From Archangium gephyra (GTDB lineage Bacteria; Myxococcota; Myxococcia; Myxococcales; Myxococcaceae), in NCBI RefSeq assembly GCF_001027285.1, contig NZ_CP011509.1, forward strand, positions 5,914,501 to 5,978,500: 64,000 nt of DNA, in the 5' to 3' direction. Positions 42,235-53,284 of this stretch are shown in pieces. A program made the position numbers and the translations under genes. A model generated the notes under the pieces. The model searched no databases. It worked only from the letters and a program-made list of their open reading frames with translations, and was not told where the DNA came from. Numbering within the stretch: position 1 is the first letter of the stretch; each line of letters opens with the position of its first letter.

Positions 42235-43800
42235 ATGTCCGCCTTCATTCATGAATGGCTGAACCTCCTGGTGCGCTGGGTCCACGTGATCGCGGCCATC
42301 ATGTGGATCGGAGATTCGTTCCTCTTCATGTGGCTCGACAGCCACCTCACCGCGCCGAGCCGCCCCCGCGAGGGCGCCGTGGTGGGCGAGCTGTGGATGA
42401 CCCACAGCGGTGGTTTCTACGAAGTGGTGAAGCGCAAGTCGCTCGCCCAGGGCGAGCTGCCGGACACGCTCTACTGGTTCAAGTGGGAGAGCTACACCAC
42501 GTGGATCAGCGGCTTCCTGCTGCTCATCATCGTCTTCCACCTCAACGGCGCGTCGCTGCTCATCGACCCGGGCGTCTACCCGCTCACCGGCTGGCAGGCC
42601 GTCGCCATCAGCCTGGGCCTCCTGCCGCTCGCGTATGGCCTGTACGAGCTGCTGTGGAAGACGCCACTGGCCAGGAACAACCGGGCGTTCGCCGCGGTGG
42701 GGTTCGTGTTGATCACCGCTCTGGCGTACGGGCTCACCCGCGTCTTCAGCGCGCGGGGCGCGTACCTGCAGGTGGGCGCCACGCTCGGCACGATCATGGC
42801 GGCCAACGTGTTCTTCCGGATCATCCCCGCGCAGCGCTACATGCTCGCGATGACTCGCGAGGGCAAGCCGGTGGACACCACCCTGGGCCTGCGCGCCAAG
42901 GGCCGCTCCATCCAGAACCACTACCTGACGCTGCCCGTGCTGTTCACGATGATCTCCAACCACTTCCCGAGCACCTATGGTGGCTCGATGCCGTGGCTGG
43001 TGCTGGGGTTGCTGTTCGTCGTGGGCGCGGGGCTGAAGTACGCGATGAACTTCCGCGCCCACACGCCGCCGCTGGCCTGGGCAGGCACGGGTCTGGCGTT
43101 GATCGGGGTGATCGTGCTGACGCGGCCGCCGCCGGATCCCGCGCTCGAGCAGTTCGCGGGCAAGCCGCCGGTGAAGTTCGAGCAGGTGGCCTCGGTGATG
43201 CAGACACGCTGCGCCACCTGCCACGCGGCACGGCCCTCGAGCCCGATGTTCGCCGCGCCGCCACAGGGAGTGATACTCGACACGCCGGACGCCATCCGCA
43301 CCCACGCCGATCGCGTCTTCGTGCGCGCGGTGGCCACCAAGACGATGCCGCTCGGCAACCTCACGGGCATGACGGAGGACGAGCGCGCGCTGGTGGGCGC
43401 GTGGTTCGCCCAGGGTGGCGAGGTGCCCGCGGACGCGAAGATGCCCGACTTCGTCGCTCCGCCCGTGGCCGCCGCTCCGGCCGCCGCTCCCACGGCGGGG
43501 GCCGCGCAGGCGGACATCCCGGAGTCCTCGCGCAACTACTTCGCCTCGGTGTGCAGCACCTGCCATGGCCCCAATGGGGCGGGGGATGGCATGGTCGCGG
43601 CGGCGCTGAATCCGAAGCCGCGCAACTTCGGCGACAAGGCGTGGCAGAAGAGCATCACCGACGACGCCATCAAGAAGATCATCGTCGAGGGCGGGGCGTC
43701 GGTGGGCAAGAGCGCGGTGATGCCGCCGAACCCACCGCTCGCGGACGATGCCGAGACGCTCAACGGCCTGGTGAGGCTCATCCGCGCCTTTGGCGCTTGA
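42235..43800 (+). CDS. puuD: Membrane urate hydroxylase (PuuD) with two cytochrome c domains
   Basis: 521 residues. The N-terminal ~300 residues form eight transmembrane helices matching PuuD (NLLVRWVHVIAAIMWIGDSF, FYEVVKRKSLAQGELPDTLYW in part, MISNHFPSTYGGS). Family members end in one cytochrome c domain; here two heme sites occur, CATCH (326-330) and CSTCH (440-444), joined by a Pro/Ala linker. The enzyme oxidises urate to 5-hydroxyisourate at the inner membrane, passing electrons to the respiratory chain through heme. It is the first gene of the purine block; allB follows 25 bp later. Confidence 0.93.
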   Translation: MSAFIHEWLNLLVRWVHVIAAIMWIGDSFLFMWLDSHLTAPSRPREGAVVGELWMTHSGGFYEVVKRKSLAQGELPDTLYWFKWESYTTWISGFLLLIIVFHLNGASLLIDPGVYPLTGWQAVAISLGLLPLAYGLYELLWKTPLARNNRAFAAVGFVLITALAYGLTRVFSARGAYLQVGATLGTIMAANVFFRIIPAQRYMLAMTREGKPVDTTLGLRAKGRSIQNHYLTLPVLFTMISNHFPSTYGGSMPWLVLGLLFVVGAGLKYAMNFRAHTPPLAWAGTGLALIGVIVLTRPPPDPALEQFAGKPPVKFEQVASVMQTRCATCHAARPSSPMFAAPPQGVILDTPDAIRTHADRVFVRAVATKTMPLGNLTGMTEDERALVGAWFAQGGEVPADAKMPDFVAPPVAAAPAAAPTAGAAQADIPESSRNYFASVCSTCHGPNGAGDGMVAAALNPKPRNFGDKAWQKSITDDAIKKIIVEGGASVGKSAVMPPNPPLADDAETLNGLVRLIRAFGA

Positions 43801-43825
43801 GACAGGGATTCCGGAGGGGAAACAC

Positions 43826-45184
43826 ATGCAGCCGTTCATCGTGCGCGGCAATCGCGTGCTGACGCCGCAGGGGATCCGCCCCGCGGCGATCCATATCCAG
43901 GACGGACGAATCACCAGGGTGGAGGCGGGTGACACCGTGCCTCCGGGCGCGAACGTGCTCGAGGCGGGCGACCTGCTCGTCACGCCGGGCGTCGTCGACA
44001 GCCACGTCCACATCAACGAGCCGGGCCGCACCGAGTGGGAGGGCTTCGAGACGGCGACCGCGGCCGCCGCGGCGGGGGGCATCACCACTGTGGTGGACAT
44101 GCCACTCAACTGCATTCCCGCCACCACCACGCGCGAGGCGGCCGAGGCGAAGCTCGCGGCGCTCGAGGGCAAGCTGCACGTGGACGTGGCGTTCTGGGGT
44201 GGGGTGATTCCCGGGAACGTGGACGCGCTCGAGGGGCTCGCGAAGTTCGGCGTGCCCGGCTGCAAGTGCTTCACCTGCCCGTCCGGCGTGGACGAGTTCC
44301 CGCACGTCTCGCGCGAGGATCTCGACGTGGCGCTGCCTCGGCTCCGGGACCTGGGACTGACCCTGCTCGTCCACGCGGAGGCACCGGGTCCGCTCGATGC
44401 CGCGGAGCGGGCCGTTTCCGGGAAGGATCCCCGGGACTACCGCACCTATCTCGGCTCCCGGCCGCGCGCGGCGGAGGACGAGGCCATCGCGATGATCATC
44501 GACCTGTGCCGCAAGCACCGGGCGCGCGCGCACATCGTGCACCTGTCGAGCGGGTCCGCCCTGCCGATGATCCGCGCCGCGCAGCAGGAGGGCGTGCAGA
44601 TCACCGCGGAGACGTGCCTGCACTACCTGGCCTTCACCGCGGAGGAGATTGCCGCGGGGGCCACGAGCTTCAAGTGCGCACCGCCCATCCGCGAGGCGGA
44701 GAACCGCGAGCTGCTCTGGCGCGGGCTGGAGGACGGGACGATCGGCATGGTGGTGTCGGACCACTCGCCGTGCACGCCCGCGCTGAAGAAGCCGGAGGCC
44801 GGCGACTTCCTCCAGGCGTGGGGTGGCATCAGCTCGCTGCAGCTCGGGCTGTCGGTGCTGTGGACGCTGGCGAAGGAGCGCGGCCACTCCGTGGAGCAGA
44901 TGTTCCGCTGGAACGTCGAGGGCCCCGCGCGGCTCGCGGGCGTGTCGGACCGGAAGGGGCGGCTCGCTCCCGGGTACGACGCGGACCTGGTGCTCTGGGA
45001 CGACACGGCCTCCTTCGTGGTCCAGCCCGAGGCCATCCGCCACCGTCACCACGTGACGCCCTACGCGGGCCGGCGGCTGTTCGGACAGGTGAAGAAAACC
45101 CTCGTCGGAGGCCGGATGGCGTATGACGCTGCGTCCAACCAGCCCCCGGCCACCGTTGGCCGCTTCCTGGCGGTTCGGAGGTAA
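43826..45184 (+). CDS. allB: Allantoinase
   Basis: 452 residues from ATG 43826 (MQPFIVRGNRVL), with ggagggg upstream. Amidohydrolase metal ligands are present: DSHVHINEPGR, the Lys of GCKCFTCPSG (carbamylated in the family), LVHAEAP, AHIVHLSSG and VVSDHSPCTP. The enzyme opens allantoin to allantoate, cytoplasmic. The next gene starts 3 bp after the stop, so puuD-allB-alc are one transcript. Confidence 0.95.
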   Translation: MQPFIVRGNRVLTPQGIRPAAIHIQDGRITRVEAGDTVPPGANVLEAGDLLVTPGVVDSHVHINEPGRTEWEGFETATAAAAAGGITTVVDMPLNCIPATTTREAAEAKLAALEGKLHVDVAFWGGVIPGNVDALEGLAKFGVPGCKCFTCPSGVDEFPHVSREDLDVALPRLRDLGLTLLVHAEAPGPLDAAERAVSGKDPRDYRTYLGSRPRAAEDEAIAMIIDLCRKHRARAHIVHLSSGSALPMIRAAQQEGVQITAETCLHYLAFTAEEIAAGATSFKCAPPIREAENRELLWRGLEDGTIGMVVSDHSPCTPALKKPEAGDFLQAWGGISSLQLGLSVLWTLAKERGHSVEQMFRWNVEGPARLAGVSDRKGRLAPGYDADLVLWDDTASFVVQPEAIRHRHHVTPYAGRRLFGQVKKTLVGGRMAYDAASNQPPATVGRFLAVRR

Positions 45185-45187
45185 CCC

Positions 45188-46750
45188 GTGGCAACGCATC
45201 AGCCCGTCCCGGCGGAGTTCAAGGGACTCGTGGATCTCTCGTCCGATCTGCTCGGCACGTTCGTGCTCTACGCGACGGACGACTACTTCGCCGAGAAGGA
45301 GAACCTGCTCAAGCCGGGTCCTCCCGAGTGGCGCGAGGGCGCGTACACCGACAAGGGCAAGTGGATGGATGGCTGGGAGTCGCAGCGCAAGCGCGAGCCC
45401 GGCCATGACTTCGCCATCATCCGCCTGGGCGCGCCGGGCCGGGTGCGCGGGGCGCTCGTCGACACCACCCACTTCAAGGGCAACGCGCCCCAGCAGATCA
45501 TGCTCGAGGGGCTCGAGGCGCCGCACACCGCCACCCCGGCGCAGCTGCTCGCGGACGAGCGGTGGGTGCCCCTCATCGAGCAGAGCGCGGTGAAGCCGGA
45601 CTTCCCGAACGTCTTCACGCTCGCCAATCCGAGCGCGCGCGTGACGCATGTGCGGCTGCGCATCTACCCGGATGGCGGCGTGTCGCGGCTGCGCGTCTAT
45701 GGCGACGTGGTGGCCGAGGACCGCACCTTCTGGCGTCCGGGCAGCGTGGACCTGGGGGCGGTGGAGAACGGTGGCACCATCGCGGCCAAGAGCGACGAGT
45801 TCTTCGGCCCGCCGGCGAACATGCTGCTGCCCGGGCGCGGCGTGAACATGGGCGATGGCTGGGAGACGAAGCGGCGGCGCACGCCGGGCAGCGACTGGGC
45901 GGTGGTGAAGCTCGCGCGGCGCGGGGTGCTCGAGCGCATCGAGCTCGACACGCACTTCTTCAAGGGCAACGCGCCGCAGGCGACGCTCATCGAGGCCGTG
46001 GACGCGACGGGCATGGACGCGGACGCCCTGCAGGCGCTGCTCGGGTCCGCCTCGCCGAGTGGCTGGCGGGTGCTCGTGGACAAGACGGCGCTCGTCCAGC
46101 ACCGGCGGCACCAGCTCGAGCCCATCCACGCCATGCCCGTCACGCACGTGCGCGTGCACATCTTCCCGCACGGCGGTGTGAACCGGCTCCGGCTCTTCGG
46201 GTACGCGCTCGACACCGAGGCGGAGTCCACGGTTCTCAAGCGGTTGAACGCGCTCGACGAGAAGGAGGCGCGGGCGGTGTTCCAGTCGTGCTGCGGCTCC
46301 ACGGCGTGGGTGGACGGGATGGTCGCGCGGCGGCAGTTCACGAGCGTGCGGGCCCTGTTTGCTGCGGCGGACACGGTGTGGTGGTCGCTCGGGGTGAAGG
46401 ACTTCCTGGAGGCGTTCGCCGCGCACCCGCGCATCGGCCAGACGAAGAAGGCCGCGCCCCAGAGCGAGAAGTCCGCCGAGTGGAGCAGGGGAGAGCAGCG
46501 CTCGGTGGCGCAGGCGGACGCCGCGACGCTGGAGCGGCTCGCGAAGCTCAACGACGAGTACTACGAGAAGTTCGGCTTCACCTTCATCGTCTTCGCCACG
46601 GGGAAGAGCGCGCCGGAGATGCTGGAGCTCCTGGAGCAGCGGGTGAAGCGCGGCAAGGCGGACGAGGTGGAGACGGCCGCGGCGGAGCAGGCGAAGATCA
46701 CCCGCGTGCGGCTGGAGAAGTGGCTGCGCGAGCAGATGGCGGGACGCTGA
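45188..46750 (+). CDS. Allantoicase fused to OHCU decarboxylase
   Basis: 520 residues. Residues ~10-340 are allantoicase, with its internal two-fold repeat (FAIIRLGAPGRVRGALVDTT and WAVVKLARRGVLERIELDT are the matching strands), splitting allantoate to urea and ureidoglycolate. Residues ~345-520 are 2-oxo-4-hydroxy-4-carboxy-5-ureidoimidazoline decarboxylase (UraD): HPRIG with His413, EWSRGEQ, and EYYEKFGFTFIVFATGKS. The two act on different steps, with allantoinase between them. Normally each is a separate protein. The fusion is seen directly; the junction has no stop or start. Confidence 0.92.
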   Translation: MATHQPVPAEFKGLVDLSSDLLGTFVLYATDDYFAEKENLLKPGPPEWREGAYTDKGKWMDGWESQRKREPGHDFAIIRLGAPGRVRGALVDTTHFKGNAPQQIMLEGLEAPHTATPAQLLADERWVPLIEQSAVKPDFPNVFTLANPSARVTHVRLRIYPDGGVSRLRVYGDVVAEDRTFWRPGSVDLGAVENGGTIAAKSDEFFGPPANMLLPGRGVNMGDGWETKRRRTPGSDWAVVKLARRGVLERIELDTHFFKGNAPQATLIEAVDATGMDADALQALLGSASPSGWRVLVDKTALVQHRRHQLEPIHAMPVTHVRVHIFPHGGVNRLRLFGYALDTEAESTVLKRLNALDEKEARAVFQSCCGSTAWVDGMVARRQFTSVRALFAAADTVWWSLGVKDFLEAFAAHPRIGQTKKAAPQSEKSAEWSRGEQRSVAQADAATLERLAKLNDEYYEKFGFTFIVFATGKSAPEMLELLEQRVKRGKADEVETAAAEQAKITRVRLEKWLREQMAGR

Positions 46751-46761
46751 AGGAGAGGCAC

Positions 46762-47094
46762 ATGGGCATCAGCACGCACATCCTGGACACCTCCCGTGGC
46801 CGCCCCGCCGAGGGCGTCACGGTGACGCTGCACGCACAGCAGGGCAGTGACTGGAAGGAGCTGGCGCGCGGGGTGACGAACGCGGACGGACGCGTGAAGC
46901 CGCTGCTGGAGACGATTCCCGCGGCGGGCGTGTACCGGCTCTCGTTCGAGGTCGAGCCGTACTTCGCGCGGCTCGACACGGAGAGCTTCTACCCGTCGGT
47001 GTCGGTGGACTTCCGGGTCCACGCACCGTCGGAGCACTACCACGTGCCGCTCCTGCTCAACCCCTTCGGCTTCTCGACGTACCGGGGCTCATGA
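46762..47094 (+). CDS. hiuH: 5-hydroxyisourate hydrolase
   Basis: 110 residues with the transthyretin-related signature: THILDTSRGRPAEGV at the start, HYHVPLLLNPFGFS, and the diagnostic C-terminal YRGS. The enzyme hydrolyses 5-hydroxyisourate, the PuuD product, to OHCU for the UraD domain. It is encoded 11 bp after the fused gene, with aggagagg upstream. Its stop overlaps the allA start (ATGA). No export signal, so it is cytoplasmic. Confidence 0.96.
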   Translation: MGISTHILDTSRGRPAEGVTVTLHAQQGSDWKELARGVTNADGRVKPLLETIPAAGVYRLSFEVEPYFARLDTESFYPSVSVDFRVHAPSEHYHVPLLLNPFGFSTYRGS

Positions 47095-47606
47095 GCACGC
47101 CCCGGATCATCCGCGCGAGGCCGTTGACGCCGGACGCCTTCGCCCCGTATGGAGACGTCGTCTCCGCGGGGTTGAAGAGCGGCACGTCGGCGAACCAGGG
47201 CACGGCGGTGCGGTTCGACTGGTCGGCCCGGCTGGAGAGCGATCGCTCCGGGGCGAAGCCGAACCTCGCGGTGTTCCGCTCGGTGCCCCAGCCGCTGCCC
47301 TTCACGGTGAAGCTGCTGGAGCACCACCCGCACTCGAGCCAAGCCTTCCTGCCCATGCTCTGCGCGCGCTTCCTGGTGTGCGTCGCGCCCACGGATGCCT
47401 CGGGAGGCCCGGATGTGGAGCGGCTCGCCGCGTTCGTGTGCGGCCCGGGGCAGGGGGTGAACTACCACCGGGGCGTGTGGCACCACCCCATCATCGCGCT
47501 GGACGCCCCGGCGGAGTTCGCGATGCTCGCCTGGGAGGACGGCGGCGCGGGAGACTGCGTGGTGCGGCAGTTCCCGGAGCCGCTGCGGGTCCTCGTCGAG
47601 GTCTGA
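47091..47606 (+). CDS. allA: Ureidoglycolate lyase
   Basis: 171 residues, ATG overlapping the hiuH stop. The family pattern is clear: LTPDAFAPYGDVV, LEHHPHSSQAFLPM, and PGQGVNYHRGVWHHP with the metal-binding histidines, plus FAMLAWEDG. The enzyme splits ureidoglycolate into glyoxylate and urea, completing the pathway. Urea then feeds the urease encoded just downstream. It is the last gene of this transcript; the convergent CAP gene ends 14 bp later. Confidence 0.95.
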   Translation: MSTPRIIRARPLTPDAFAPYGDVVSAGLKSGTSANQGTAVRFDWSARLESDRSGAKPNLAVFRSVPQPLPFTVKLLEHHPHSSQAFLPMLCARFLVCVAPTDASGGPDVERLAAFVCGPGQGVNYHRGVWHHPIIALDAPAEFAMLAWEDGGAGDCVVRQFPEPLRVLVEV

Positions 47607-47620
47607 GCCCCGCGTGAGCG

Positions 47621-48259
47621 CTACTGGGCGCCGAAGTCCTGCGTCCAGTAGTGCGCGTAGGTGCTGCCGGAGGCCCGGTAGTAGTAGCCCACGCCCAGGT
47701 GCTTGTAGCTGGCGCTCATGATGTTGTTGCAGTGCCCCGTGCTGTTCATCCAGCCCGTCACCGCCGCCGCCGGCGTGTTGTACCCGGCGCCGATGTTCTC
47801 CGCCGCCGCGCGCCAGACGTAGCCCGCGGACGTCATGCGCTGGAACGGCGTGGAGCCGTTGGAGCCCGTGTGGCTGAAGAAGTTGTTCACGGCCATGTCC
47901 TTGGAGTGCTTGCGCGAGGCGCAGCGCAGCCGCGTGTCCAGGGTGAGCGCGGGCACCGGGGGCTTGGCCACGCCACCGCACGTGGCTCCCGCCGCGCGCT
48001 TCTGGTTCACCAGCGTGAGCACCTGGTTCTCGAAGTCGGTCCAGCCCGCGGTCCAGGTGGTCACGTCATCGCAGTAGGCCAGGGCCGTGACGGAGCCCTC
48101 CTCCGCGGGTGCCTCCGCCTGCACGCTCTCGCCGATCACTCCTTCGGACGCCGTCTCGTCACACTGCTCGGGACACTCTCCGGCACGCTCCTCGCCCGCT
48201 CCACAGCCCGCCAGCAGCACCGCGCCCAACAGAACAGAGACTCCTCGGTTCATTCGCAT
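47621..48259 (-). CDS. CAP-domain lipoprotein
   Basis: 212 residues from ATG 48259 (or 48253). A signal peptide ends in a lipobox (AVLLAGC). After a short Glu/Ala-rich region, a CAP domain follows (~75-210): NQKRAAGATCGG, LRCASRKHSKDMAVNNFFSH, ENIGAGYNTP, MNSTGHCNNIMS and YWTQDFG. It has the usual CAP histidines and glutamate. It interrupts the otherwise plus-strand purine-urease block. Its relation to that pathway, if any, is unclear. Another, longer CAP protein lies at 21593-23104. Confidence 0.9.
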   Translation of the reverse strand: MRMNRGVSVLLGAVLLAGCGAGEERAGECPEQCDETASEGVIGESVQAEAPAEEGSVTALAYCDDVTTWTAGWTDFENQVLTLVNQKRAAGATCGGVAKPPVPALTLDTRLRCASRKHSKDMAVNNFFSHTGSNGSTPFQRMTSAGYVWRAAAENIGAGYNTPAAAVTGWMNSTGHCNNIMSASYKHLGVGYYYRASGSTYAHYWTQDFGAQ

Positions 48260-48441
48260 CACGTCACCGTTCTTTCTTTTTCGATGTGTTGTCCAGGGAC
48301 AGACCCCGCCGAGCACTCAGGCCGCCCGGGGAGGAGGCAGCCCTGTATTCCATGTTTCATCATGAATCCAGGTTTGTCTATTCTCGCGGGTTGAGAGAAG
48401 GATTGGAGATCGCGAGGCGTGTGCGGCAGTCTCACGAGCCG

Positions 48442-49293
48442 ATGATCGCCAGTGAGCACACGCCGCCCCAGGAAGTGGCCCGGACCCGTCGAGCGGGGAG
48501 CGCGAGGCTCGCCTTCGAGCGCGTGGGGAACCGGACCGTGGTGCGCACCGCGCTCGCGCACAGTCCCTTGCGGTTGCTGACGCCGCGCAATCACGGGCAC
48601 GCCGCCTGGGTCTACACCAGCTCGCTCGGAGGAGGGCTGGTGGATGGGGACCATCTCACCGTGGACCTGGACGTCGCCGAGGGCGCCGCCGCGCTGCTGT
48701 CCAGCCAGGGCTCCACGCGCGTCTACCGCTCGCCGCGCGGCTGCCGGAGTGAGCTGTCCGCCCGCGTGGCACCGGGCGCGCTGCTCGCGTGGGTGCCGGA
48801 TCCCACCATGTGCTTCACGGGCGCCCGGTACACGCAGAGCCAGGACATCCAGCTCGCCCCCGGTGCCTCGCTCGTCCTGATGGAGCTGCTCACCGCGGGC
48901 CGCAGCGCCGCCGGAGAGCGCTGGGCCTTCACGCACTACTCGTCCTCGCTCCGGGTGCACCGCGAGGGCCGGGCGCTGATCGATGAGCGTTGGTTGCTCG
49001 ACCCGGCCCATGGCGTGCTGCCCGAGCGCCTCGGCCGCTTCGACGCGCTGGGCACCGTGGTCCTCGTGGGACCCGCGCTGGACTCCGCCCGCGAGGCGCT
49101 CGCCGCGCACGTGGGCTCCCTGCCCGTGACGCCCCGCTCCGGGCTCGTCTGCTCCGTGAGCCCGCTCGGGACGGATGGACTGGTGCTCCGCGTGGCGGCC
49201 ACCTCCGCCGAGGCACTGCTGCGCACCAGCCGCGAGTGGCTGTCCTTCCTTCCCTCGCTGCTCGGGGACGATCCCTGGGCACGCCGGGGGTGA
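48442..49293 (+). CDS. ureD: Urease accessory protein UreD
   Basis: About 283 residues from ATG 48442; GTG 48421 or ATG 48352 upstream are also possible and the RBS does not decide it. UreD/UreH motifs are present: RLLTPRNHGHAAWVYTSSLG in part, GGLVDGDHL, QGSTRVYRS, and LLAWVPDPTMCFTGARYTQS in part. UreD forms a scaffold complex with UreF and UreG that inserts nickel in urease. It is the first urease gene, in the common D-first order. Confidence 0.93.
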   Translation: MIASEHTPPQEVARTRRAGSARLAFERVGNRTVVRTALAHSPLRLLTPRNHGHAAWVYTSSLGGGLVDGDHLTVDLDVAEGAAALLSSQGSTRVYRSPRGCRSELSARVAPGALLAWVPDPTMCFTGARYTQSQDIQLAPGASLVLMELLTAGRSAAGERWAFTHYSSSLRVHREGRALIDERWLLDPAHGVLPERLGRFDALGTVVLVGPALDSAREALAAHVGSLPVTPRSGLVCSVSPLGTDGLVLRVAATSAEALLRTSREWLSFLPSLLGDDPWARRG

Positions 49294-49386
49294 GCCCCAT
49301 TCCTCGCTGGCCGTGAATGACGCATCGCGCTAGGGTGGCCGCTGGCCTGTCCAGAGTCCTTGCTGGGCGGCCCACCCGGAGGGTCG

Positions 49387-50154
49387 ATGCACCTGTCACC
49401 GCGTGAGCTCGACAAGCTGCTGCTGCATGGCGCGGGCTTCCTGGCCCAGAAGCGCCTGGCGCGAGGCTTGAGGCTCAACTACCCCGAGTCCGTGGCGCTC
49501 ATCGCCACCCAGCTCCTGGAGTTCATCCGTGACGGCCAGAGCGTGGCCGAGCTGATGGACCTGGGACGGAAGCTGCTGGGGCGCTCGCAGGTGATGGAGG
49601 GCGTGCCGGAGATGGTGGCGGAGGTGCAGGTGGAGGGCACCTTCCCGGACGGCTCGAAGCTGGTGACGGTGCACCACCCCATCGAGGCCGAGCACGGAGA
49701 TCTGTCGCTGGCGCTCTACGGCAGCTTCCTCCCGGTGCCGCCGCTGGAGCGTTTCCAGCGTCCGCCCCAGCAGGAGGAGGTGCGGCCCGGGGAAGTGCTC
49801 GTGCAGCCGGGCGAGCTGGTGCTCAACGAGGGCCGCGACACCCTCACGCTGGAGATCACCAACCGGGGAGACCGTCCGGTGCAGGTGGGCAGCCACTACC
49901 CGTTCTTCGAGACGAACCGGGCGCTCGTGTTCGATCGGGCGAAGGCGTACGGCAGGCGGCTGGACATCCCGGCGGGGACGGCGGTGCGCTTCGAGCCCGG
50001 AGAGAAGAAGACGGTGTCGCTGGTGGCCATCGCCGGGGCGAGGGTGGTGTGGGGCGGCAACGCGTTGGGCTCGGGGCCTGTGACGCCGGAGAACCAGGAG
50101 CGCGCCCTGGCCGAGGTGGCCGCGCGGGGCTTCGGACACGAGGAGGGCGCATGA
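49387..50154 (+). CDS. ureAB: Urease gamma-beta fusion subunit
   Basis: 255 residues. Residues ~1-100 are urease gamma ([40 protein letters not shown]). Residues ~125-255 are beta ([49 protein letters not shown]). The two are in one frame with a short linker, as is seen in Helicobacter; most bacteria have separate genes. They are structural subunits around the alpha catalytic chain. The stop overlaps the ureC start (ATGA). Confidence 0.95.
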
Positions 50155-51866
50155 GCCGGAAGATGGATCGCCGTCACTACGCGGACATGTTCGGTCCCAC
50201 GGCGGGGGACCGGGTGCGGCTGGGGGACACGGGGCTGGTGGCGCAGGTGGAGAAGGACCTCACCGTCTACGGCGACGAGTGCAAGTTCGGCGGCGGCAAG
50301 GTGCTGCGCGACGGCATGGGCCAGAAGTCCGGGGTAGGGGATGCCGAGGCACTCGACTGCGTCATCACCAACGCACTCATCGTCGACTGGTCGGGCATCT
50401 ACAAGGCGGACATCGGCATCAAGGCGGGACGCATCACGGGGATTGGCAAGGCGGGCAACCCGGACGTGATGGCGGGGGTGACGCCGGGCATGGTGGTGGG
50501 CGTGACCACCGAGGCCATCGCGGGCGAGGGGCTCATCGTCACGGCGGGCGGCATCGACTCGCACATCCATTTCATCTGCCCGCAGCAGGCGGACGAGGCG
50601 ATCGCCAGCGGCATCACCACCTGGGTGGGTGGAGGCACGGGGCCGGCCACGGGCACCAACGCCACCACCTGCACGCCCGGCGCGTGGAACATCCGGCGCA
50701 TGCTTCAGGCCACGGACAACATTCCGCTCAACATCGGCCTCACCGGCAAGGGCAACACTTCGCGCCCCGAGGGCCTGTTGGATCAAATCGCCGCGGGAGC
50801 CATCGGCCTGAAGCTGCACGAGGACTGGGGCACCACGCCGGCCACCATCGACAACTGCCTGTCGGTGGCCGAGGGCGAGGACGTGCAGATCACCATCCAC
50901 ACGGACACGCTGAACGAGTCTGGCTTCGTGGATGACTCGATCGCCGCGTTCAAGGGCCGCACCATCCACACGTACCACTCGGAGGGAGCGGGAGGCGGGC
51001 ATGCGCCGGACATCATCCGGGTGTGCGGCCAGCCCAACGTGCTGCCGAGCTCGACGAACCCCACGCGTCCGTACACGGTGAACACGCTGGACGAGCACCT
51101 GGACATGCTCATGGTGTGTCACCACCTGGACCGGGAGATTCCCGAGGACGTGGCCTTCGCGGAGAGCCGTATCCGGGGAAGCACCATCGCGGCGGAGGAC
51201 ATCCTGCACGACCTGGGGGCCATCAGCATGATGTCCTCGGACAGCCAGGCGATGGGACGGGTGGGGGAGGTCATCACCCGCACGTGGCAGACGGCGCACA
51301 AGATGCGCGAGCAGCGCGGGCGCCTGCGCGAGGAGACGGGAGACAACGACAACCTGCGCATCCGCCGCTACGTGGCCAAGTACACGATCAACCCGGCGAT
51401 CGCCCACGGGCTGGCGCACGAGGTGGGCGCGGTGCAGGTGGGCATGCTGGCGGACCTGGTGCTGTGGCGGCCGGCCTTTTTCGGCATCCGTCCGGAGCTG
51501 GTGGTGAAGGGCGGTTTCATCGCCTGGGCGCAGATGGGAGACCCGGGGGCGTCGATTCCCACGCCGCAGCCCTTCTACATGCGGCCGCAGTTCGGAGCCC
51601 GGGGCCATGCGGTGGGCGCCACCAGCATCGCCTTCGTCTCGGGCCGCGCGCTCGCCGAGGGGACGGTGCGGGGACTGGGGCTGTCCAAGCAGCTCTCCGG
51701 GGTGAAGCGGTGCCGGGGGATTGGCAAGCGGGACATGAAGCTCAACGACGCGCTGCCGGTGCTCACGGTGGACCCGGAGACGTACGAGGTGCGCGCGGAT
51801 GGCGAGCTGCTGACCTGCGAGCCCGCCGTCCGGTTGCCCCTGGCGCAGCGCTACTCGCTCTTCTGA
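50151..51866 (+). CDS. ureC: Urease alpha (catalytic) subunit
   Basis: 571 residues, the normal length. The two nickel ions are held by HIHF, the carbamylated Lys of GLKLHEDWG, and histidines in HTDTLNESG and [15 protein letters not shown]; the flap MVCHHLD and [11 protein letters not shown] are also intact. The enzyme hydrolyses urea to ammonia and carbamate in the cytoplasm. It overlaps the ureAB stop by 4 bp; ureF follows 9 bp later. Confidence 0.98.
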
Positions 51867-51875
51867 GGGACGGAC

Positions 51876-52538
51876 ATGGGCTCCGCGTGGAGGGTGTTGC
51901 AGCTGGCCGACTCGGGCTTCCCCACGGGGGGCTTCGCGCACTCGGGAGGCCTGGAGGCGGCGGTACAGCAGGGCGAGGTGCGCGGGCGCGAGGGCCTGGA
52001 GCGCTTCGTGCGCGAGCTGCTGTGGCAGACGGGGCACGGGGCGCTGCCCCTGTTGGGAGCGGCCTGGCGCGAGCCCTCGACCGTGGAGGCGCTGGATGCC
52101 CGCGCGGAGGCCTTCCTCACCAACCACGTGGCCAACCGGGCGAGCCGCACGCAGGGGCGGGCCTTCCTGGACACCTGCGCGCGCATCTTCCCCGGGCCAG
52201 TGGGGCCGCTGCGGCAGGCGGCGCGGGAGGCCGGCGTGCGCTACCACCACGCGCCCCTGTTCGGCGCGGTGCTGCGCGTGCTGGACGTCGAGCTACCCGA
52301 CGCGCAGCAGCTCCTGCTGTCCCTCACGCTGCGCGGGGCGCTGTCGGCGGCGGTGAGGATGGGGATCGTCGGCACGCACGAGTCCCACCAGTTGCAGAAC
52401 CGGTGCGCGCCCCTGCTGGACACGGTGCTGGAGACGTGTGCCGGGCTGGGCGTGGAGTCGCTGGCCCAGACATCGCCCTTGATGGACCTGCTCGGCTCCA
52501 CGCACGACAGGCTCTACTCACGGTTGTTCCTTTCCTGA
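51876..52538 (+). CDS. ureF: Urease accessory protein UreF
   Basis: 220 residues with UreF motifs: LQLADSGFPTGGFAHSGGLE, FLTNHVANRASRTQGRAFL in part, and a C-terminal MDLLGSTHDRLYSRLF. UreF sits between UreD and UreG and gates GTP hydrolysis during nickel delivery. It lies between ureC and ureG, with 8 bp to the latter, in one operon. Confidence 0.94.
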   Translation: MGSAWRVLQLADSGFPTGGFAHSGGLEAAVQQGEVRGREGLERFVRELLWQTGHGALPLLGAAWREPSTVEALDARAEAFLTNHVANRASRTQGRAFLDTCARIFPGPVGPLRQAAREAGVRYHHAPLFGAVLRVLDVELPDAQQLLLSLTLRGALSAAVRMGIVGTHESHQLQNRCAPLLDTVLETCAGLGVESLAQTSPLMDLLGSTHDRLYSRLFLS

Positions 52539-52546
52539 GGTGAACC

Positions 52547-53284
52547 ATGCACGACGACCACCGTGGCCACGGCCATGACGACGACCATGACCACACGCAT
52601 GAGGAGTGGGACCACCCGGGCCACTTCCACGAGCGCGAGCAGCCCGAGCGGCGCGACTTCTCGGCGAGGGCGTTCACCATCGGCATTGGAGGGCCGGTGG
52701 GCAGCGGGAAGACGGCGCTGGTGCTGGCGCTGTGCCGGGAGCTGAGGGAGCGCTACCGGCTGGGCGTGGTGACCAACGACATCTTCACGAAGGAGGACGC
52801 GGAGTTCCTGGTGCGCAACCAGGCGCTCTCGCCCGAGCGCATCAAGGCGGTGGAGACGGGTGGCTGCCCGCACGCGGCGATTCGCGAGGACATCAGCCAC
52901 AACCTGCTGGCGCTCGAGGAGTTGATGGATGCGCTGAAGCCGGAGCTGCTGATTGTCGAGAGCGGGGGAGACAACCTGGCGGCGCAGTACAGCCGGGAGC
53001 TGGCGGACTACACCGTGTACGTCATCGACGTGGCGGGCGGGGACAAGGTGCCGCGCAAGGGCGGGCCGGGCATCACCCAGTCGGACCTGCTGATCATCAA
53101 CAAGACGGACCTGGCGCCGCACGTGGGCGCGGATCTGTCGGTGATGGATCGCGACGCGCGGAAGATGCGGGGCGAGGGGCCCTTCGTCTTCACCCAGGTG
53201 ACGAAGGGCGTGGGGCTGCAGGAGGTGATCAACCACCTGCTCGGAGCGTGGCGCAAGGCCACGGGCGCCACGCTCCGCACCTGA
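52547..53284 (+). CDS. ureG: Urease accessory GTPase UreG with His-rich N-terminus
   Basis: 245 residues, about 40 longer than the usual ~205. The extra N-terminus holds ten histidines in its first 28 residues, mixed with Asp, which could bind nickel. The G domain follows with P-loop GGPVGSGKT (~48-56), [20 protein letters not shown] (the metal-binding C-P-H motif), ESGGDNLAA and NKTDL. It supplies GTP-driven nickel transfer. No ureE gene is present in the window. Only 2 bp separate its stop from the convergent cyclase gene. Confidence 0.96.

Follow-up and report, generated by a model that had tools for sequence, protein, structure and literature searches.

A single open reading frame in the window (the whole stretch of 64,000 nucleotides of DNA from the soil myxobacterium Archangium gephyra that was analysed) encodes a protein with an allantoicase (Alc) as its N-terminal part and an OHCU decarboxylase (UraD) as its C-terminal part. 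We consider it probable, at roughly 80 %, that this is a bifunctional enzyme whose two active sites work independently and which was born of gene adjacency, and the fusion looks like the merger of two operon neighbours rather than a new mechanism.

The initial annotation had placed both enzymes in one open frame, and this was confirmed by a translation free of inner stops, by the Pfam domains and by recurrence of the arrangement elsewhere. The frame (alc-uraD, Table 1) has a GTG start codon and a product of 520 aa. PF03561 is matched in two stretches, the best spanning residues 24–174, with a total of 306.9 bits (cut-off 27), and PF09349 is matched at residues 354–510 with 155 bits (cut-off 24). 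Among the NCBIfam models, the protein passes the cut-off for the allantoicase TIGR02961 (379 bits vs 277.9) and for the OHCU decarboxylases TIGR03180 (156.3 vs 139.4) and NF010372 (159.1 vs 124) and lies below that for the other OHCU decarboxylase model, TIGR03164 (59 vs 96.25). The UraD half thus fits the UraD_2 model and not TIGR03164.

Table 1. Features of the urate cluster. Positions are those of the window, except in the last row, where they are those of locus L134 from an unfused relative in the same genus
Feature	Position	Strand	Basis or remark
puuD, membrane urate oxidase with cytochrome c domain	42235..43800	+	PF06181 (337 bits), PF00034/PF13442
allB, allantoinase	43790..45184	+	TIGR03178 (551.8 bits, cut-off 357.85)
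alc-uraD, fused allantoicase-OHCU decarboxylase gene	45188..46750	+	Pfam and NCBIfam; sole hit in the genome to either family
allantoicase part, residues 1–340, two repeats	45188..46207	+	PF03561 in two stretches; TIGR02961; 1o59 fold
junction, residues 341–343	46208..46216	+	AlphaFold model, alignment
OHCU decarboxylase part, residues 344–520	46217..46747	+	PF09349, TIGR03180, NF010372; 3o7h and 2q37 fold match
uraH, 5-hydroxyisourate hydrolase	46762..47094	+	PF00576
allA, ureidoglycolate lyase	47091..47606	+	PF04115
ureD	48109..49293	+	PF01774 at residues 169–368 of 394
ureAB, urease gamma and beta subunits, one frame	49360..50154	+	PF00547, PF00699
ureC, urease alpha subunit	50151..51866	+	translation and gene order, by eye
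ureF, urease accessory	51876–52538	+	PF01730
ureG, urease accessory	52547–53284	+	PF02492
FAD/NAD(P)-binding oxidoreductase	L134:4230–5831	+	equivalents in L135, L137, L153–L156, L162, L164, L168–L170

Four residues of the UraD domain, His413, Glu436, Gln437 and Arg508, are invariant in the 43 aligned fused proteins, and the same four are found in all 39 unfused UraD rows. In the alignment that includes these unfused rows, one fused row that is cut by a contig end has a gap at position 508. We take them to be active-site positions with catalytic roles. In the Alc domain, D61, W63, E64, W225 and E226 are conserved in every fused row (44 of 44) and every unfused one (39 of 39). It is therefore improbable that one of the domains is inactive and has been kept as a structural or oligomerising appendage, although fusions can in general tolerate this. 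A genome-wide search of the 12.5-Mb host genome found no match to alc or uraD beyond the fused gene and, hence, loss of one activity would break the pathway.

The AlphaFold model of the fused protein is a single two-domain fold (mean pLDDT 92.2, pTM 0.88) in which 507 of the 520 residues have a pLDDT of ≥70 and 13 a pLDDT of <70, with one weak stretch at approximately residues 51–60. The Alc half resembles the solved allantoicase 1o59 (TM 0.82 on target, E 2.6e-34), and the UraD half resembles the OHCU decarboxylase 3o7h (TM 0.89 on target), with 2q37 matched too. The last Alc strand is formed by residues 333–340 and the first UraD helix by residues 344–355, making the junction short, and residues 341–350 are modelled as ordered with a pLDDT of 97. 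The spacing from G338 to N354 is 15 residues in 37 of the 43 fused proteins in the alignment, 13 in five and 10 in L052; the sequence of the junction varies among them though its length is near-constant. A junction that is short and, in this model of a monomer, ordered could conceivably reflect purposeful placement of both active sites.

The fused gene lies in a cluster with the order puuD, allB, alc-uraD, uraH, allA and urease genes, a set that from knowledge of the families we take to lead overall from urate to glyoxylate and ammonia. The real start of ureD probably lies downstream of position 48109, and the urease gamma and beta subunits share a single frame, an arrangement known elsewhere. 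A small minus-strand gene (47621–48316) separates allA from ureD, and by eye its product looks like a secreted CAP-type protein. The gene is matched in L136 and in L028, where allA lies about 6 kb away from the counterpart. A bestrophin-family gene (PF25539; 41180–42160, minus strand) is divergent from puuD and adjoins puuD also in L136 and L028.

In the pathway, PuuD produces 5-hydroxyisourate, UraH converts this to OHCU and UraD converts OHCU to (S)-allantoin, from which AllB forms allantoate, and Alc then releases ureidoglycolate and urea. Taking the reaction order from the family names, we infer that the fused protein has both activities. The C-terminal domain would form (S)-allantoin by decarboxylating the OHCU that PuuD and UraH supply, a separate AllB would open the allantoin to allantoate and the N-terminal domain would hydrolyse the allantoate to ureidoglycolate and urea, with AllA and urease completing the pathway. 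The initial annotation was right that Alc and UraD are not consecutive, as Alc handles allantoate two steps later, once the separate AllB has acted. Because the AllB step falls between those of the two domains, the fused protein by itself cannot pass an intermediate from site to site, and direct channelling between the domains is unsupported. The suggestion that the fusion guards the unstable OHCU did not hold up either, as UraH supplies the OHCU and the UraD domain is itself the enzyme that uses it up. The main effect would be fixed 1:1 synthesis of the two enzymes, and perhaps loose co-location, with direct channelling presumably absent.

An unlikely alternative is that the fused protein serves as scaffold for a uricolytic complex in which UraD would bind UraH, Alc would bind AllB and the intermediates would be held in one particle. 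Such a complex is consistent with the short junction, ordered in the model, and with the fact that allB, alc-uraD and uraH adjoin in many loci. In addition, UraD-UraH fusions exist (PMC2834698), and an allantoinase-allantoicase complex is reported for amphibians, such interactions having been suggested (PMC3646786). If it were correct, an unstable intermediate would have in the fused protein a natural scaffold that links non-consecutive steps. However, no allB match was found in the sequence available for eight of 23 fused loci (three of the eight, L031, L033 and L039, have <7 kb upstream), the same genes are kept by unfused relatives and gene adjacency alone explains the fusion. Less likely still is a particle with a rigid core, in which self-associating UraD together with Alc, held by the near-constant junction, would recruit UraH and AllB such that OHCU, allantoin and allantoate are never released.

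Returning to the bifunctional enzyme derived from two neighbouring genes, we found other fused frames that share 92 and 96 % identity with the host protein in the same genus and 43–76 % elsewhere. The closest named record among the matches listed, in a search that may omit records very near the window, is from Archangium violaceum Cb vi76 (96 % protein identity). Retention of the fusion down to 43 % identity could indicate a benefit beyond convenience. In the host family (96 genomes), 74 genomes include a match and, on reading the rows, 20 have the fused gene, 53 have two neighbouring genes and one has a fragment (G012). The fused genomes include G008, as its frame (L023) is open and contains both domains despite a stop flagged in the alignment row. 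Across the 195 Myxococcota genomes, 89 match NF010371, the rows comprising 30 fused (two of them, G120 and G123, cut by contig ends), 57 unfused and two fragments (G012 and G168). Three of the six genomes of the host genus are fused and three are unfused. A contig scan found both domains in one frame in 30 of the best 80 of 570 relatives, a share that is biased toward fusion by this selection and that includes several genomes also in the family and Myxococcota counts.

Of 299 sampled Pseudomonadota genomes, 18 match at E ≤1e-80 and none spans both domains, in a search that scored at most four candidates per genome and so may miss rare fusions. Likewise, 145 plasmid records match, none with over 80 % of the query in one place. 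The genome searches sampled groups other than Actinomycetota and Bacteroidota.

The presence of unfused genes in the same genus might suggest that a sequencing or assembly error had joined two genes. However, the fused frame is in 20 of the 96 family genomes, and the recurrence of the whole two-domain frame makes chance or assembly error very unlikely. With the frames open and the junction near-constant in length, an artefact was rejected.

The arrangement in unfused relatives indicates how the fusion may have arisen. There, alc and uraD are mostly adjacent, and a start codon for uraD is available within a 4-base overlap with the alc stop in all 13 unfused rows from the family and in 21 of 39 overall; the gap exceeds 400 bases in six of the 39. 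We infer that at such an overlap a one-base frame change would be enough for fusion. Adjacent genes in the order alc-uraD would thereby have become one frame in a myxobacterial lineage, and Alc is joined to UraD, which is not the consecutive enzyme, because the two are operon neighbours in unfused relatives. All 23 fused loci that span 12 kb or more have a uraH match downstream.

Within the genus, the fused clusters compared (the window, L136 and L028) have the order puuD-allB-alc/uraD-uraH-allA, and the unfused ones (L134, L135 and L137) have allB-alc-uraD-uraH, puuD and allA both being unmatched within the 16 kb read. The Alc and UraD of these three are 44–47 % identical to those of the host. 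The two versions of the cluster would then be old, separate lineages that have been exchanged or differentially kept, and a recent fusion within the genus is disfavoured.

Trees of the Alc and UraD parts were built by a quick method (LG+G4) from 82 rows, 43 fused and 39 unfused. The rows exclude duplicates, L138 (whose UraD part is too short), L139 (which runs into a contig end) and loci with no UraD match or a UraD score of ≤60. The last group includes L123 and loci in which uraD precedes alc, such as L068, and the trees hence say little on that arrangement. In the UraD tree, 42 of the 43 fused rows fall on one side of a branch with SH-aLRT support of 98. The Alc tree, for which the program warns of long branches meeting, places the same 42 main rows in two groups, one of 24 (support 100) and one of 18 (support 91). 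Under parsimony this tree requires three changes, with a minimum of two imposed by the starred branches. The case for one main origin therefore comes from the UraD tree. The remaining row, L052:7989–9458 (plus strand), from a record titled Candidatus Cloacimonadota, is fused and lies among unfused rows in both trees, and, with its shorter junction, is apparently an independent second fusion of Alc to UraD.

The PuuD domain, PF06181, was found in 26 of the 96 family genomes, including all 20 with the fusion, and the classical uricase, PF01014, in none of the 96. Among the 53 unfused genomes, four (G039, G040, G041 and G044) contain PF06181. The other 49 have an FAD/NAD(P)-binding oxidoreductase (E ≤1e-100, exactly 49 of the 96), which at this threshold is absent from all 26 family genomes with PF06181 and has no match in the four unfused clusters with puuD. 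In all 12 such clusters read, the oxidoreductase gene immediately precedes allB. HpyO is a Xanthomonas urate oxidase that uses FAD and NAD(P)H (PMC4562309), and from this description the oxidoreductase is probably an HpyO-type urate hydroxylase. A hidden, unknown urate oxidase in the unfused clusters was also considered and was largely set aside, the known HpyO being preferred (PMC4562309). Several unfused clusters have after uraH a gene for a DUF6986 protein (PF22484; L134:9092–10474, plus strand), also seen near some fused loci (L159 and L163), and, as a guess, it is perhaps involved in glyoxylate use.

The locus offers a clear example of neighbouring genes in an operon having become a single protein, with fused genes and overlapping unfused genes in one genus. 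It is also a warning that fusion of enzymes that are not consecutive is not evidence of channelling.

The Alc-UraD architecture is not new. The initial annotation was aware of no description of it, and the literature search, covering titles and the starts of abstracts among the matches listed and subscription journals sparsely, found no paper on such a fusion. However, many examples of the two domains in one chain were found, 30 of the 89 matching Myxococcota genomes carry it and NF010371 (PRK13797, 521 positions, named 'allantoicase') spans it end to end, which places it already in a curated collection. Positions 11–518 of this model align to residues 10–513 of the host protein, and both have the two domains in identical order. 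The host protein scores 519.6 and does not reach the curated cut-off of 814, hence it is not a strict member. Each of the 43 fused proteins in alignment A1 gives a hit to NF010371 at E ≤0.001, and no lineage above the cut-off of this model was found in 195 Myxococcota, 13 further and 299 Pseudomonadota genomes. NCBI's older name for the model was presumably putative bifunctional allantoicase/OHCU decarboxylase. The current name hides the decarboxylase and, thus, genomes with the fusion may seem to be without uraD.

A further NCBIfam model, NF010373 (PRK13799, 'unknown domain/N-carbamoyl-L-amino acid hydrolase fusion protein'), resembles the host UraD half in its N-terminal part. The match is weak (36 bits over positions 4–171 of 591, far under the cut-off of 1087) and suggests a UraD-like domain fused to what we take to be an amidohydrolase. 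In contrast to the host protein, this model has the UraD-like part at its start and a partner other than allantoicase. In the UraD-UraH fusion of Arabidopsis (TTL) and some bacteria, OHCU decarboxylase is likewise joined to an enzyme of the same pathway, and for TTL both activities are reported as demonstrated in vitro (PMC2834698). That fusion joins consecutive steps, whereas the partner in the host protein, allantoicase, acts two steps later. In a fungal fusion, the enzymatic function of which its authors state they were unable to test adequately, allantoicase is, as here, joined to a pathway partner, but the partner is different and the steps are consecutive (PMC3646786).
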